Origin: Neisseriales bacterium
GTDB lineage: Bacteria; Pseudomonadota; Gammaproteobacteria; Burkholderiales; UBA11063
Length of the DNA: 64,000 nt
Direction: 5' to 3'
Assembly (NCBI GenBank): GCA_008017155.1
Contig: SSGX01000009.1
Location: 1-64,000, forward strand
The position numbers and the translations under genes were made by a program. A model generated the notes under the pieces. The model was not told where the DNA came from. It did no database searches and worked only from the letters and a program-made list of their open reading frames with translations. This document shows positions 256 through 6,344 of this stretch, in pieces. Each line of letters opens with the position of its first letter. Position 1 is the first letter of the stretch.

Positions 256-431
256 ATATTTAATTTCAGAAAGGATTATAGCAAAATACCTAGTTTAAGT
301 AATTGATAAATATTTATTAAAACTGTTGTAAATTTAATTATAAGCTAAGAGACAGTTGGTTTATAGAGGAATATGCATTTTATATGGGGGGTATCTTTAT
401 CGGTACTAGGGATGGTGGCTGGATATAGATG
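256..431. other. Intergenic region, no gene seen
   Basis: AT-rich spacer between the end of the IS element and the putative promoter/operator of the following lipoprotein gene. I see no supported ORF, tRNA or clear hairpin. The minus-strand frame across 345-659 has unlikely composition and overlaps the start of the lipoprotein gene. Confidence 0.5.
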
Positions 432-490
432 ATGTGGATTAATCTGTGGTTTTGAAATTAAAACGACGAATGATATTATCTGCCCTTGCA
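432..490 (+). promoter_or_regulatory. Putative promoter with upstream direct-repeat operator (copy 1)
   Basis: A direct repeat TGTGGAT-N5-TGTGGTT lies at 433-451. It is followed by an extended -10 element (TG at 471-472, TATTAT at 474-479) and CTTGCA at 485-490 near the expected transcription start. The same elements occur at the same relative positions at 4228-4286 before the outer-membrane protein gene. There is no good -35 hexamer; the second repeat unit abuts that position, as expected for an activator-dependent promoter. The pattern is visible; the function is inferred. Confidence 0.5.
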
Positions 491-528
491 TAAAGCATCT
501 AACTTTTCTAATAAGGACTAAATAAGAT

Positions 529-3500
529 ATGCAAAGGCAATATAATATTAAAAACATAGCCAAAATTTCTGCTGTAGCATTAAGTGCGGCAGTAGTTATT
601 GGTTGTGGTGGTGGGACTAACGGTACTACCTCTTCTAATAATACTACTAATGATATCATTGGGAATGGTACTGTTTATCTGGATCAGCTTGGAGTTGTTC
701 CAGTAAGAAATGGTTATAAGTCAACTTATCTGTTGCGAATCAATAACGGCACTGCTAGTAGTTATACAATTGAATCAGTAAAAGTAACGGATATAACAGG
801 AAGTAAAGATCAGTCAGATATAGTTAAGCTAGTTGCTTCGGTAGGTAAAGAGATTCCGGCTAATGGTAGTAGTAGTATCCAATTTAGCCCACAGTTGGCA
901 ATCTCTGGAGATGTATTGTTAACGGTAATATTGAAAGCAGCGGATGGTAAGTCTCAAGTATTACATCAGCTAATCCGGATGAGTGATCAGGTTGGCAGTA
1001 GTGCTGGTGTTGGTGCAATAAATGATATAGGGCAGATAAATAGTAAAGATGGTAGTTATAGTATCTCGGTACCAATTATTCTTACTCAGGATTTTGATAA
1101 AGTTAGTGCTGCAAATGGGAGTGTACTTTGTAGTGCAGCTGGTTTCAAGAGCGGTAATAGCTGTACTTTATTGATAAAAGGTAAGGCGTTGGCTGATCAT
1201 ACAATTGTTAATACTCGTATATCAGGCTACCGCGATGGACATGAAGTTGCCTTTAGTGATGGTGGCGTATTAATTGAAAAAGTTGAAGCTGCTAATTTGC
1301 TGATTTCTCATGGTGTAAAAGTTAAAGCTGATGGCAAAGAAAGTGCTTCAATCACTGTTTTTAACAGTGGCAATTCTCCTGCGACTAATTTACAAGTTAC
1401 TGGATTACAAAAATTAAGCGTTATTAATTCTGATGCATGTTCTCAAGTTGGAGCCGATAATGCTTGTGAATATAAAGTAACAGCAACAAGCGAGGTAAAT
1501 GGTAATGAACCATTTACAGTAAACTATAACGGAAATCAAAACGTAACGACTAATATTGGATATAAAGCTGAAAAGCCACAAATGGACATTACGAATGAAA
1601 TTAATGGTAGTTTAATTAATACACTGATTAATGATGGACCAAATCAGGTTACTATTACACTCACAAATAATTCTAGTCGAAATTTGCAAAACATGAAAGT
1701 TAGCCTTCCAGCTGCAGCTAAAGGTTTTACACTAGGGGGTGACTGTAGTGGTACTATGAAGGACACGTGTGATATAACAGTTGATTATGAGCCAAAGGAT
1801 ATTATTAATGATGCTATATTAAATCTGAATATAACTGGAACTTATACGTCTGTAGATGGAATAGTCAAACAATATTTTACTACCGTTGGTATTCCATATT
1901 CAGCAGTTATACTGGATCATATATTAACAATTACTCCTAACAATGGTAGTGGTGATCTACTGGCTACTATTGGGCAAGGGGCGGAAGCTGATTTTACTAT
2001 CCGTAATACAGCGAAAAAACTCACAGCTGGGGTAGATATGATTAGATTAGAGAAAGCTGTTAAAGGTTTAAGCTTGGAATTTTCTAGCTGTGGCTCGAGT
2101 AAATTCAGTCTTAAAGCTCAAGATAATTGCGGGATTAAGGTTAGATATGCCCTACAACCCAATATCGTAGCTAGAGAAAGTAATGAAATTAGGGTTGATT
2201 ATAATATAAATGGTCAGGCTGTTCTTGGTCGATCTGCACCATTTATTAGTGAGGTGACTGCTGGAGACCGTGCAGCTATTATGACTAAAGTTACAGCAGA
2301 AAATAAGCCAATAGGGATGACTGAGAAAAATGATACTTATCAGTTTACTGCACTTAGTAATAATGCTTTGACACTCAGATACACCTTCAGTAATAAAGGA
2401 AATCAGGATGCCGCTAAATTTAATGTAACAGGGATACCTTTTGAAGCTGAAGTGGTTGATGATAAATGTCATATTACTGGGTCACAGGTTGGTATTATTG
2501 ATAAAAATGGGGCATGCTATATTGATCTCAAAATACCTGCATCCAGCTTTCTGGAACAACAAGCTTCATTCGAAAGTGATGCCCTATTAATGGCAAATGT
2601 CGAATTACCCATTAGATATAGTTATATTGATAATGCTGGTAGTAAACCAAGCGAGCAGCAAATTAACGATATAAAACGAAATGTAAACTTTAATCGAAAA
2701 TGGGCAACAATTGAATCAATTGTTTCTGATGTTGAATTGGTAAGAGATCCGGCTAATGGTGATTATTGGCTTGCTACTTATAAAACGACAGTAAATGTTG
2801 ATCAAAAGATGATAACTGATGGATTGGTTACTTATCCTTTAACTATGACACCATATTGGCAACACAAACCTGATTCAGTTGTGTTTACTGATTGTAAGAT
2901 AAATGACGCTTCTAGCAACAAGTGTATTGCAACTGCTAAATTTCCATTAAGTGTATTTGGCGAACATAAGTTGAAGCTGGAAATAGAGTTAGCCGGTGCA
3001 GGTATGTCTCCGAGTGATAAATTATATGCTCCGGTTTTTACCGAACTAAAAAATATTGCTATGGTGACTTTAAGTAAACCGTTTAGTAGTAATACTCAAG
3101 GCATCGTACCCTATGGGCACTTTAAGGATAAGGTTATTTATGCTCATAATGAAAAATATCCGTTTGAAATGGTATTTGATAAATCTGGGTTAAATAATCA
3201 ATTTCCAGTTAGTGATATAAAGTTTTATACTAATTCTTCATTTCCTAAAAACTTTACTATTAGCCTTGAGGACATCAACTGTAAAGAGGAAGAAAAAAAA
3301 TGTATTCTAGCTGGTAGTTTGCAAATAAGGAAAACTTCGGGAGATTGGCAGGATATAGAAAGTATTGTATTACCAGTATCCTTATCTTATAAACAGGAAA
3401 GCAAAGTATTTAATACTTATCCGGTTAATTTATCAGTGGTTGGAGGTACTATAATTCCAACACTAAGTAATACCATCCCCTCAACAGAGGGTCAGAAAGT

Positions 3501-3981
3501 AACAATATATCCTAATGGACAGAAACAGCCTTATACAGCATATTTTATTCCGTCTGGTGATAATACTGGTGTTATTGCGGCTCCTGATTATAAGCTTACT
3601 GATGGTTGGACAGAAGGAATTAATACGATAAAAATGAATGCTGTTAGTGACTTATTTCCACAAGTTGTACCATTAGATATTTTCATGTCACGAGTAATTG
3701 GGCAGGGGCGTAGATACTTTCTAAGTACATATCATCGTAGTGATCAAGAAAACACTGGTTATAGCGCTGTAGAAGTATTTGTATCTAAAAATATTTACAC
3801 TAGTGAAAAAAGATATAACTATTCACAGACCGCACCGTGGAGTGATGAAGAATATGATGGGCTGAATTCAACTCTTGGATTAGGTACATATCATGTTAAT
3901 TTTTATATGTATGGTCAAGAGTCTGCAAATATGGATCATCAGTATCTTACTTATGTAAAATTAGAATATACTAAAAAATAA
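529..3981 (+). CDS. Large repeat-containing lipoprotein
   Basis: A 1150-residue protein of unknown function. It has a lipoprotein signal peptide ending in VIGC (lipid-attached Cys26) and then a Gly/Ser/Thr/Asn-rich linker, so it should be anchored in the envelope. The rest looks like a series of beta-sandwich modules of roughly 100-150 residues, many closing with a cysteine pair (for example CSAAGFKSGNSC, CSQVGADNAC, CSGTMKDTC, CHITGSQVGIIDKNGAC, CKINDASSNKC). This suggests one disulfide per module. The style resembles CARDB/DUF11 or Ig-like surface repeats, but I recognise no specific family. The start is ATG 529 with AAGGA at 513-517. A strong terminator follows. Could be an adhesin, a surface scaffold or a surface-layer component. 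Confidence 0.85.
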   Translation: MQRQYNIKNIAKISAVALSAAVVIGCGGGTNGTTSSNNTTNDIIGNGTVYLDQLGVVPVRNGYKSTYLLRINNGTASSYTIESVKVTDITGSKDQSDIVKLVASVGKEIPANGSSSIQFSPQLAISGDVLLTVILKAADGKSQVLHQLIRMSDQVGSSAGVGAINDIGQINSKDGSYSISVPIILTQDFDKVSAANGSVLCSAAGFKSGNSCTLLIKGKALADHTIVNTRISGYRDGHEVAFSDGGVLIEKVEAANLLISHGVKVKADGKESASITVFNSGNSPATNLQVTGLQKLSVINSDACSQVGADNACEYKVTATSEVNGNEPFTVNYNGNQNVTTNIGYKAEKPQMDITNEINGSLINTLINDGPNQVTITLTNNSSRNLQNMKVSLPAAAKGFTLGGDCSGTMKDTCDITVDYEPKDIINDAILNLNITGTYTSVDGIVKQYFTTVGIPYSAVILDHILTITPNNGSGDLLATIGQGAEADFTIRNTAKKLTAGVDMIRLEKAVKGLSLEFSSCGSSKFSLKAQDNCGIKVRYALQPNIVARESNEIRVDYNINGQAVLGRSAPFISEVTAGDRAAIMTKVTAENKPIGMTEKNDTYQFTALSNNALTLRYTFSNKGNQDAAKFNVTGIPFEAEVVDDKCHITGSQVGIIDKNGACYIDLKIPASSFLEQQASFESDALLMANVELPIRYSYIDNAGSKPSEQQINDIKRNVNFNRKWATIESIVSDVELVRDPANGDYWLATYKTTVNVDQKMITDGLVTYPLTMTPYWQHKPDSVVFTDCKINDASSNKCIATAKFPLSVFGEHKLKLEIELAGAGMSPSDKLYAPVFTELKNIAMVTLSKPFSSNTQGIVPYGHFKDKVIYAHNEKYPFEMVFDKSGLNNQFPVSDIKFYTNSSFPKNFTISLEDINCKEEEKKCILAGSLQIRKTSGDWQDIESIVLPVSLSYKQESKVFNTYPVNLSVVGGTIIPTLSNTIPSTEGQKVTIYPNGQKQPYTAYFIPSGDNTGVIAAPDYKLTDGWTEGINTIKMNAVSDLFPQVVPLDIFMSRVIGQGRRYFLSTYHRSDQENTGYSAVEVFVSKNIYTSEKRYNYSQTAPWSDEEYDGLNSTLGLGTYHVNFYMYGQESANMDHQYLTYVKLEYTKK

Positions 3982-3999
3982 TTAATCTTCTGACGCATT

Positions 4000-4030
4000 A
4001 AATTGGCAGCTTTATCTGGCTGCCAATTTT
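4000..4030 (+). terminator. Rho-independent terminator after the lipoprotein gene
   Basis: Perfect 11-base stem AAATTGGCAGC (4000-4010) with GCTGCCAATTT (4019-4029), an 8-base loop, and a short T run completing the 3' arm. It lies 19 bases after the lipoprotein stop, so that gene is probably monocistronic. Confidence 0.85.
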
Positions 4031-4227
4031 CTGGCTATTATATTAGGTTAGTCTTACTTTATTTGGGTCATGGTTATAGATAGCCTACCTAACTTGAATA
4101 GCTTCTCTCAAAATATTATCATGGATTATTTATTATGCTGCTGATTTTTTTAAGTAGTTATGAAGTAGTCTAGATAATTATAGTGGGTATATTTATAGGT
4201 ATCTAGCATCACTGGGGTATTTGCTAC
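4031..4227. other. Intergenic region before the barrel gene, no gene seen
   Basis: AT-rich spacer between the lipoprotein terminator and the second promoter/operator module. I see no supported coding frame or RNA gene. Confidence 0.5.
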
Positions 4228-4286
4228 ATGTGGATAGAAGTGTGGTTTTTCTTGATAACTAAGTGGTGCTAATATCATTGCTTGCA
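4228..4286 (+). promoter_or_regulatory. Putative promoter with upstream direct-repeat operator (copy 2)
   Basis: Second copy of the module found at 432-490: direct repeat TGTGGAT-N5-TGTGGTT at 4229-4247, extended -10 (TG at 4267-4268, TAATAT at 4270-4275) and CTTGCA at 4281-4286, all at the same offsets as in copy 1. The predicted start of transcription leaves a short leader with AAGGAG at 4286-4291 before ATG 4303. The intervening bases differ between copies, so this is not a simple recent duplication. Confidence 0.5.
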
Positions 4287-4302: not shown

Positions 4303-4800
4303 ATGGATATAAATCTTATGAAGTCTTTTTTTAAAAAGTTGTCAATATTAGCACTTTGCGCTTGTGGCTTTTCGGCACTTGCAATTGATAATCCAGTGTT
4401 TCTTGATGCCAATCTTAGCCCTTCAACCTTAGGTGTTAGTTTAAATATAGGTTATAGGTTTAATAACTATCTGGGGCTTGAAGCTGGCGCAATTTATTCG
4501 CCATCATACGCATACTGTGATGGTTCTTGTAAAAGTTACCATATGTTTGATGCAGCAGTAAAGGGAGTCTTGCCTTTGGGGGATTTAGTATCACTCTATG
4601 GCAAATTGGGAGTTGGGCTAAATGAGTATTCTGCTCCAATATCTGGTAGTGGTTATTTAGGTACACAAAATGTCGGTGTTTTACTAGGTGCAGGGCTTGC
4701 GTTTAATCTGTCAACTCATTGGGAATTACATTTGGAAGATGTAATCGTAACTGGGGCAAACCCAAACTTTATTAATCTTGGTATGGAATTTAAATTTTAA
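4303..4800 (+). CDS. Small outer-membrane beta-barrel protein
   Basis: About 165 residues with a hydrophobic signal sequence (KLSILALCACGFSALA) and then alternating-polarity strands rich in Gly and aromatic residues. It ends in EFKF, the C-terminal aromatic signature of BAM-assembled outer-membrane proteins. The size fits an 8-stranded OmpA/OmpX-like barrel. Residues Cys-Asp-Gly-Ser-Cys lie in a putative loop. ATG 4303 is chosen because AAGGAG sits at 4286-4291; ATG 4318 (MKSFFKK) is an alternative. The next gene starts 14 bases after the stop, so the two form an operon. No specific function is recognised. Confidence 0.75.
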   Translation: MDINLMKSFFKKLSILALCACGFSALAIDNPVFLDANLSPSTLGVSLNIGYRFNNYLGLEAGAIYSPSYAYCDGSCKSYHMFDAAVKGVLPLGDLVSLYGKLGVGLNEYSAPISGSGYLGTQNVGVLLGAGLAFNLSTHWELHLEDVIVTGANPNFINLGMEFKF

Positions 4801-4813
4801 GGAGTCATTTAGA

Positions 4814-5458
4814 ATGAATAAATTATTGAATATTACTTGTTGGAAACCATTATTGCTAACGCTAGGCATTGCATCAGTCGGTCAGGCTTATGCTTCAGAC
4901 TTTTTTCTGATTGGGAATCTTAACTCTAGTAAGCCAGCTAAATTTAAACTTTTTGGCGCTAATGGTCGTGAGTTGGTTGTAAGTCTATTTCCAAAAGAAG
5001 CCTGTTTTGTAAATGATTTATCTTATCTACCACGGCAGGGGCAAGAAAAGACCGTGATTATAACTGATATGGATGGTCAAGTAGAATCAATAGTTATTAC
5101 CCAGAAAACTGAGTCTGCTGGGATATTTAACATGATCGCTAATGGGGTAAAAGATTTTAAAGCAATGCCTTTTTATGTACAGGATAATGATACTAAAGAG
5201 TGGCGAACTGTCGGGAAAAATAAGATTTCGCTTGGGACTGATCTTGAAAAGCTAGTTGATGGTAAACAGCAAAAAGATTATTTACTTGGAATTGACAATG
5301 TTTCTACTAATCCTCAATTTCCATCTAACCGCGATTTTTTTAGGCAAAGTATTTTTTCTTGTTATGACAAGTATACAGGTTTTGGTAATGCAGCTAGTCC
5401 AGTTGTACCTAGTGTAATTCATGCAAATATACCTTTTTGGTCTTCTAAAGCTAAGTAG
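4814..5458 (+). CDS. Secreted/periplasmic protein of unknown function
   Basis: About 214 residues starting MNKLLNITCWKPLLL, with a signal peptide probably cleaved after GQAYA. AAGGAG at 4799-4804 overlaps the stop of the barrel gene, which selects ATG 4814 over the longer frame and implies translational coupling. The mature part is soluble-looking, with single cysteines in KEACFVND and FSCYDKY that could pair. I recognise no domain. Sharing an operon with a barrel protein suggests an envelope role, perhaps as its periplasmic partner. Confidence 0.7.
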   Translation: MNKLLNITCWKPLLLTLGIASVGQAYASDFFLIGNLNSSKPAKFKLFGANGRELVVSLFPKEACFVNDLSYLPRQGQEKTVIITDMDGQVESIVITQKTESAGIFNMIANGVKDFKAMPFYVQDNDTKEWRTVGKNKISLGTDLEKLVDGKQQKDYLLGIDNVSTNPQFPSNRDFFRQSIFSCYDKYTGFGNAASPVVPSVIHANIPFWSSKAK

Positions 5459-5552
5459 CTAAATTTATCACTTGAGGTATAAGGCGTCTTTACCTACATT
5501 TATTTCTTCAAGTGACATTTCTAATTTAATCAATCATAAAAGGAGGTATTAG

Positions 5553-6344
5553 GTGAATGTGGATTTAACTGTCAATAATGCCGAAGATCAGATTTATCTG
5601 GAACAATATATTTCAGCATTTAAGCTATTATATGGTACAAATGCTTATATTGGAATTAGTTATATTAAGGATAAGAATTTTAACTATTGTGCAGCTAGTC
5701 AGCAGTTCATCCAACTCTTGGATGTTGTGGGAGAAGAAGGTAAGCTAATTGGTAAAGGTGACTATCAAATCCCAGCGCTGCAATCATATGTCAGTATGGT
5801 TAATACTATTCGCAAGCAAGATATTCAGATATGTGCAGAGCGCAAAGCGCAGAAATTCCTGTATATTACTCCTGATAAATATGCTTACATTGCGCAAAAA
5901 TATCCAATTATAAATCCACATACAAATAATGTAATAGGTGTGCATGGACAATTATCCAAATTCGTATCCCCACATCCATTAAAATATTTATCAAGATTGG
6001 CGGATTCTGCTGATTGTGTTCCACCTCTAACGGCTGACGAGAATGAGCAGATTGCAGCAATTAACAAGCATTTGACTGAACGCAAACACATGATATTATA
6101 TTTATCAATTCAACGTTATTCATACTCTGAGGTGGCTGAAATATTGACCGAGCTTGGCTATAAGATTTCAAAAGAGCGTGTAAATGATCATTTGAATGCA
6201 TTAAAGTATATCTTTGTGGTTACAAGTAAAGATGAATTAATCAATAAGGCAATTGCATTTAATTATCATTGTTGCATTCCAAGAAAATTATTACAAGTAG
6301 GCTCTTATCTACTTGATGATGATTTATTAATTTCAGAGCACTAG
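5553..6344 (+). CDS. PAS-like sensor with C-terminal helix-turn-helix
   Basis: 263 residues starting at GTG 5553, fixed by AGGAGG at 5541-5546. Residues about 20-135 look like a PAS sensory domain (YIGISYIKDKNFNYCAASQQF, then a region ending in IGVHGQL). The C-terminal part (about 170-235: LSIQRYSYSEVAEILTEL through KERVNDHLNALKYIF) reads like a LuxR-type HTH that has diverged. Likely a one-component transcription regulator sensing a small molecule or redox state. It lies next to two envelope transcription units carrying a shared operator-like repeat, and is a candidate regulator of them. Upstream, TCACTTGA near 5468 and TCAAGTGA near 5510 form a spaced inverted repeat that might be its own operator. 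Confidence 0.7.
   Translation: MNVDLTVNNAEDQIYLEQYISAFKLLYGTNAYIGISYIKDKNFNYCAASQQFIQLLDVVGEEGKLIGKGDYQIPALQSYVSMVNTIRKQDIQICAERKAQKFLYITPDKYAYIAQKYPIINPHTNNVIGVHGQLSKFVSPHPLKYLSRLADSADCVPPLTADENEQIAAINKHLTERKHMILYLSIQRYSYSEVAEILTELGYKISKERVNDHLNALKYIFVVTSKDELINKAIAFNYHCCIPRKLLQVGSYLLDDDLLISEH

Follow-up and report, generated by a model that had tools for sequence, protein, structure and literature searches.

A promoter-like module common to two adjacent surface-protein units in an Aquella genome, and its possible link to VqmA-like receptors

Introduction

Activators of the OmpR/PhoB type typically bind direct repeats spaced at about one helical turn beside a poor -35 element. The quorum-sensing receptor VqmA reads palindromes of the form GG-N6-CC or GG-N9-CC (PMC8284805). 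Here, we describe a locus that resembles each of these systems in part. It lies in a stretch of 64,000 nucleotides from a Neisseriales bacterium (assembly GCA_008017155.1, contig SSGX01000009.1, positions 1 to 64,000 of the forward strand), hereafter the window. A large lipoprotein gene and an outer-membrane beta-barrel gene are preceded there by the same promoter-like elements, and a gene encoding a VqmA-like protein follows. An earlier note, made from the letters of this DNA, had described the elements as one promoter/operator module that might define a regulon of surface proteins. We compared the window with its own genome (assembly G000, 2.47 Mb, estimated to be 81% complete) and with the genus at large (23 Aquella genomes). 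We hold, with moderate confidence, that a single activator-type promoter module, present in paralogous copies in the two upstream regions, co-ordinates the lipoprotein and barrel units, perhaps through the VqmA-like receptor.

The two copies of the module

The region upstream of the lipoprotein gene (383-490, copy 1) aligns without gaps to the one upstream of the barrel gene (4179-4286, copy 2), with 62 of 108 positions identical and a constant offset of 3796 (table 1). The fixed geometry that had been proposed before the two envelope genes is thus confirmed. Every element lies exactly where it had been placed, and the similarity is in fact wider, spanning 108 bases and taking in a distal box. 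Within the tandem, ATGTGGAT occupies 432-439 and 4228-4235, and (T)GTGGTTTT occupies 446-453 and 4242-4249. A reasonable sigma-70 core can be read in copy 1; copy 2 is without a good -35. If transcription starts about 7 bases past the -10, where we set it, the repeats would sit at about -53 to -47 and -41 to -35. This position, over the -35 and upstream of it, is the usual place for a polymerase-touching (class II) activator, in line with the activator-suited spacing that had been suggested.

The lipoprotein and barrel coding regions are unrelated. Among the 1176 upstream pairs in the window, the module pair has the top score under G/C-weighted ungapped scoring (34.7, next 28.4), with a Gumbel p of about 1.3e-6 per pair and about 1.5e-3 over all pairs. 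By plain identity over 100 columns, it ties for first.

Table 1. Features of the locus and positions of the related palindromic module.
Feature	Position	Strand	Details
Distal shared box, copy 1	383..405	+	TAT-N4-GGTAT-N-TTTAT-N-GGTA, GGTA recurring with a 12-base period; ungapped alignment
Tandem operator-like repeat, copy 1	432..453	+	ATGTGGAT-N5-TGTGGTTTT; genome pattern search
Core promoter, copy 1	452..479	+	TTGAAA-16-TATTAT, TG-N before the -10; consensus match alone
Extended -10, copy 1	471-479	+	TG-A-TATTAT
CTTGCA block at putative transcription start, copy 1	485..490	+	Sequence
Large lipoprotein, 1150 amino acids	529..3981	+	Lipobox ...VVIGC; no Pfam match; relatives in 6/23 Aquella genomes
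Terminator-like hairpin between the two units	4000..4029	+	-20.6 kcal/mol for 3990-4040, z -5.3
Distal shared box, copy 2	4179..4201	+	Matches the copy-1 box TAT-N4-GGTAT-N-TTTAT-N-GGTA; ungapped alignment
Tandem operator-like repeat, copy 2	4228..4249	+	Sequence; genome pattern search
Extended -10, copy 2	4267..4275	+	TG-C-TAATAT
CTTGCA block at putative transcription start, copy 2	4281..4286	+	Sequence
Small outer-membrane beta-barrel protein, 165 amino acids	4303..4800	+	Pfam OMP_b-brl, E 3e-11
Exported protein, no known family	4814..5458	+	Starts 13 bases past the barrel gene; predicted to share its operon
VqmA-like PAS-LuxR regulator, candidate local regulator	5553..6344	+	Model, fold matches, profile match to VqmA (E 3e-14)
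Palindromic module, G000 contig C8	17267-17369, 20379-20481, 27218-27320		Precedes genes for large lipoproteins and a barrel protein
Palindromic module, A. oligotrophica (G017)	1374057, 1386108, 1388927, 1842381, 2599970		

Search for further copies

The exact tandem TGTGGAT-N5-TGTGGTT occurs twice in the 2.47-Mb assembly, both times at the window locus. With up to two mismatches there are 51 matches, compared with 69 for a reversed control pattern, which is the level expected by chance (background rates were taken from pattern searches and selected stretches). When the tandem was combined with the -10 and up to three mismatches were allowed, the two window sites were again the only ones in this assembly. 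The distal box also has two exact occurrences in the genome. A profile built from both copies (R1) returned no convincing third copy on either strand of the 23 Aquella genomes. Its third-best hit in the own genome (C5:14611) falls within a conserved permease gene and was rejected. The module was not seen upstream of barrel relatives in other genomes, in a partial look at these regions besides the R1 scan of both strands. A possible copy (L226:4508-4555; 8.7 bits, E 0.14) lies upstream of the G014 lipoprotein that adjoins the closest relative of the regulator. Since the exact tandem is confined to the window locus, it does not mark a dispersed regulon; the module is common to two adjacent transcription units. 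The genome-wide regulon that, it had been suggested, the motif may define is therefore absent, as far as an 81%-complete assembly tells.

A palindromic promoter class in Aquella

A different module of about 100 conserved bases lies upstream of several relatives of the window lipoprotein. It comprises the palindrome CCACC(C/T)AAA-TAT-TTTGGGTGG, followed by TTGTGTGATTTTA, (C)GGGTTT, TATACAAT and CTCCCGTA, in a layout where the palindrome precedes TGTG-N12-GGTTT and a -10 box comes 21 bases further on. For example, on contig C8 of the own genome one promoter is common to a barrel gene of the OMP_b-brl family and to two lipoproteins related to that at 529-3981. A profile of this class built from seven sites (R2) recovered an eighth site that had not gone into its training and that lies at 1374057 of A. 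oligotrophica, upstream of a further large lipoprotein (E 3e-20). The profile gave a weaker match before a G014 lipoprotein (E 7e-5), and further matches near E 1e-4 include one within coding sequence. The exact palindrome has eight matches in the 23 genomes, two of them being both readings of one site, and its reversed control has none; all are upstream of exported-protein genes, save one within coding sequence. The palindrome CACCCAAAAGATTGGGTGGTA at G022:C28:19427-19447 (L278) lies between two divergent exported-protein genes. Judged by these sites, there is a wider family of putative surface-protein promoters in Aquella with a distal operator unlike that of the window. This family has in common with the window module only the spacing of TGTG, GGTTT and the -10, and a regulon defined by the window motif itself is not supported. 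The class is not described in the literature that we searched.

In A. oligotrophica, the window lipoprotein has an orthologue that is 45% identical along almost the full length, and the gene for it carries a promoter of the palindromic type. Hence, the promoter type follows the locus, not the coding gene. Anchored on the -10, TGTG lies 41 bases upstream in the window and 42 in the palindromic class, and GGTTT lies 26 bases upstream in both. In the Aquella sequence searched, the pattern TGTG-N(10-13)-GGTTT-N(20-22)-TANNNT, which was loosened post hoc, picks out the two window copies, six lipoprotein or barrel promoters of the palindromic class and a single unrelated place. When the palindromic-class matrix, anchored on the -10, was applied to the TGTG..GGTTT block, copy 1 scored at p 0.0015 and copy 2 at p 0.019 relative to shuffles, in tests likewise shaped post hoc on class members that are related to each other. 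At p of about 1e-3, post hoc, the shared TGTG/GGTTT/-10 spacing is suggestive, short of proof. The window module probably belongs, as a locally divergent form, to the Aquella surface-lipoprotein promoter class, which elsewhere has a distal palindrome.

The VqmA-like regulator and its paralogues

Pfam, NCBIfam and single-sequence PDB searches with the protein encoded at 5553-6344 returned nothing firm. Its AlphaFold2 model (predicted local distance difference test, pLDDT, 84) has an N-terminal PAS domain and a C-terminal LuxR-type helix-turn-helix (HTH), which is the arrangement of VqmA. The top Foldseek matches of the model are all VqmA, from V. cholerae and phage VP882 (E 6e-12), and its VIA structural match has a Z of 18.1 with 210 residues and a root-mean-square deviation of 3.1. 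A profile of the family (21 members) matched VqmA chains alone in the PDB below E 0.01 (E 3e-14 to 5e-11). The protein is thus a full-length PAS and LuxR-HTH homologue of VqmA. In the V. cholerae receptor, the residues that contact the ligand include K101 and F99. The lysine equivalent to K101 (K116) is invariant across the Aquella family; the F99 position holds alanine in the window protein and V, H and other residues in relatives. As regards a response to DPO, full-length Tdh is encoded in most Aquella genomes; the own, incomplete genome has weak dehydrogenase matches alone. At the start of the regulator gene, a stretch (5543-5576, GAGGTATTAGGTGAATGTGGATTTAACTGT) is similar to part of copy 2 of the module (score 21.0), possibly as a site of self-regulation, possibly by chance.

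Searches with the regulator family give 14 matches in the own genome, compared with 31 in A. oligotrophica (G017), some clustered in twos or threes. Some of these are fragments or fall twice in one gene, so the true gene numbers are lower. Relatives of the lipoprotein lie near regulator paralogues on contig C8 of the own genome, on contigs C80 and C108 of G014, and at 1.838 and 2.599 Mb of the A. oligotrophica genome, which is complete (strain P08T, a chromosome of 2,820,660 bp; PMC6612550). Two of the three strongest lipoproteins in that genome are within 3 kb of a regulator paralogue (p 0.014). Our literature search on VqmA in Neisseriales, or on VqmA linked with lipoproteins, found no relevant paper.

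Proposed mechanism and alternatives

We propose that one module makes two adjacent, separately terminated units respond together, the lipoprotein gene (529-3981) and the barrel gene with the exported-protein gene (4303-5458). A regulator bound to the tandem TGTGG(A/T)T site (about -53 to -35) would bring RNA polymerase to an extended -10 whose -35 is poor, and a second, locus-specific contact would be made at the distal box. The identity of the regulator is the weakest step. Tentatively, the VqmA-like PAS-LuxR protein is the most likely one, because its paralogues also adjoin related lipoprotein loci; by position and repeated association it is the best candidate. A broader picture, which is more speculative again, would hold for the genus: VqmA-like receptors, multiplied to as many as about 30 per genome and in part encoded next to large surface lipoproteins, would act through locus-specific modules, mostly palindromic and in the window tandem, to turn on lipoprotein genes jointly with barrel genes. 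A cell would then carry several cassettes of signal receptor and surface coat.

Several observations weigh against this proposal. The tandem has just two sites, so that its conservation is weak evidence, and within the pair identical positions cluster only weakly into blocks (permutation p 0.03). The R2 profile has no match in the window, including both copies, and the palindrome searched as the exact pattern CNCCNAAA-N3-TTNGGNGGTA is absent at both modules; the spacing tests that link the window to the palindromic class were shaped post hoc. The association between regulators and lipoproteins is modest in one complete genome (p 0.014 for the three strongest lipoproteins, 0.05 for six). Lastly, VqmA sites are palindromes (PMC8284805), whereas the window carries a direct repeat, and neither GG-N6-CC nor GG-N9-CC is found on reading 383-490 and 4179-4286.

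The alternative that survives best, although we think it unlikely, is that there is no dedicated regulator and that an old duplication copied upstream DNA from one gene to the other; the similarity would then be mostly shared descent, and the core promoter alone would work. The clustering into blocks lends some weak weight to functional conservation rather than duplication, as had been claimed for the pair. At this strength the two copies alone cannot tell constraint from an old duplication. A gapless match of 108 bases at constant offset is what a copied stretch would give, and the genus scan found no third site, but the coding regions downstream are unrelated. Moreover, the spacer between -35 and -10 (454-470 and 4250-4266) keeps 3 of its 17 bases, compared with unbroken runs of 8 and 9 of 9 in the repeats, and the proximal spacing recurs at independent lipoprotein promoters.

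Less probable still is that the module is read by a regulator encoded elsewhere, for example a response regulator of the OmpR/PhoB type, instead of the VqmA-like protein. The window does have direct repeats of the kind used by such activators beside a poor -35. Another regulator is also conceivable because VqmA reads palindromes and the module is a direct repeat that lacks both VqmA spacings. However, a global regulator should have more sites than the two found, the period in the window is 12 bases instead of the usual 10-11, and a look at the first 9 kb of the window revealed no gene of this type.

It is very unlikely that the tandem repeats are DnaA boxes linking both genes to replication. 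The idea was considered because TGTGGATAA (the complement of TTATCCACA) is a DnaA box and because a cluster of DnaA-like boxes, two of them 12 bases apart, is among the nearest further matches to the tandem in the genome (C27:125826, one mismatch). In both copies the first repeat departs from the box at one base, but the second and better conserved repeat, TGTGGTTTT, departs at three, so that TTATCCACA or a close variant does not occupy both repeats. The two copies also disagree at box positions 8-9 of the first repeat, and the sister palindromic class (TGTGTGATT, TGTGTAATT) does not fit the box. The cluster itself (L003:1440-1533, near 125826 of contig C27 in G000) lies between a recC-looking gene and a transporter gene.

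Other features of the locus

The N-terminal part of a transposase-like protein is encoded on the minus strand at 3-209 of the window, at the contig end, and a similar full-length gene is found at L222:3773-4459. The contig thus probably breaks in an insertion sequence. A near-identical stretch, CTACCCCCAGATATTGGGGG then TGTGGATAAGT, occurs beside similar genes on contigs C51 and C26 (L004:200-250 and L030:1470-1520), and reads as a small repeated element.

Comparison with known systems

Promoters controlled by activators are ordinary. What deserves attention here is that one architecture is common to unrelated surface genes in a locus. The related architecture at other lipoprotein loci offers a handle on how a poorly studied genus chooses its surface coat. 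If VqmA-type receptors are expanded many-fold outside Vibrio, the reach of a signalling system so far known in few organisms would be extended, and this could be tested in A. oligotrophica, which is a cultured species.

Three systems can be compared with the locus. The first is the control of vqmR by VqmA in Vibrio cholerae, with its counterpart in phage VP882, where VqmA acts on qtip. The likeness lies in the full-length PAS and LuxR-HTH homologue encoded at the locus and in an activator acting at a promoter. The differences are that Aquella has many receptor paralogues per genome, that its candidate targets are surface proteins whereas those of Vibrio and the phage are a small RNA and a phage antirepressor, respectively, and that neither the direct repeat of the window nor the CC..GG palindrome of the sister class corresponds to GG-N6-CC or GG-N9-CC. 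The second comprises class II promoters with tandem-repeat activators of the OmpR/PhoB type. As in these, the direct repeat of the window overlaps the upstream edge of a poor -35 and is followed by a usable extended -10, but it has a 12-base period, two genomic sites and no linked two-component gene in view. The third is the palindromic class of Aquella itself. It shares with the window module the type of target gene, almost equal distances of TGTG and GGTTT from the -10, and a conserved block at the putative start. It differs in its palindrome, CCACC(C/T)AAA-TAT-TTTGGGTGG, in the sequence of the start block (CTCCCGTA, compared with CTTGCA in the window), and in a profile that does not match the window.

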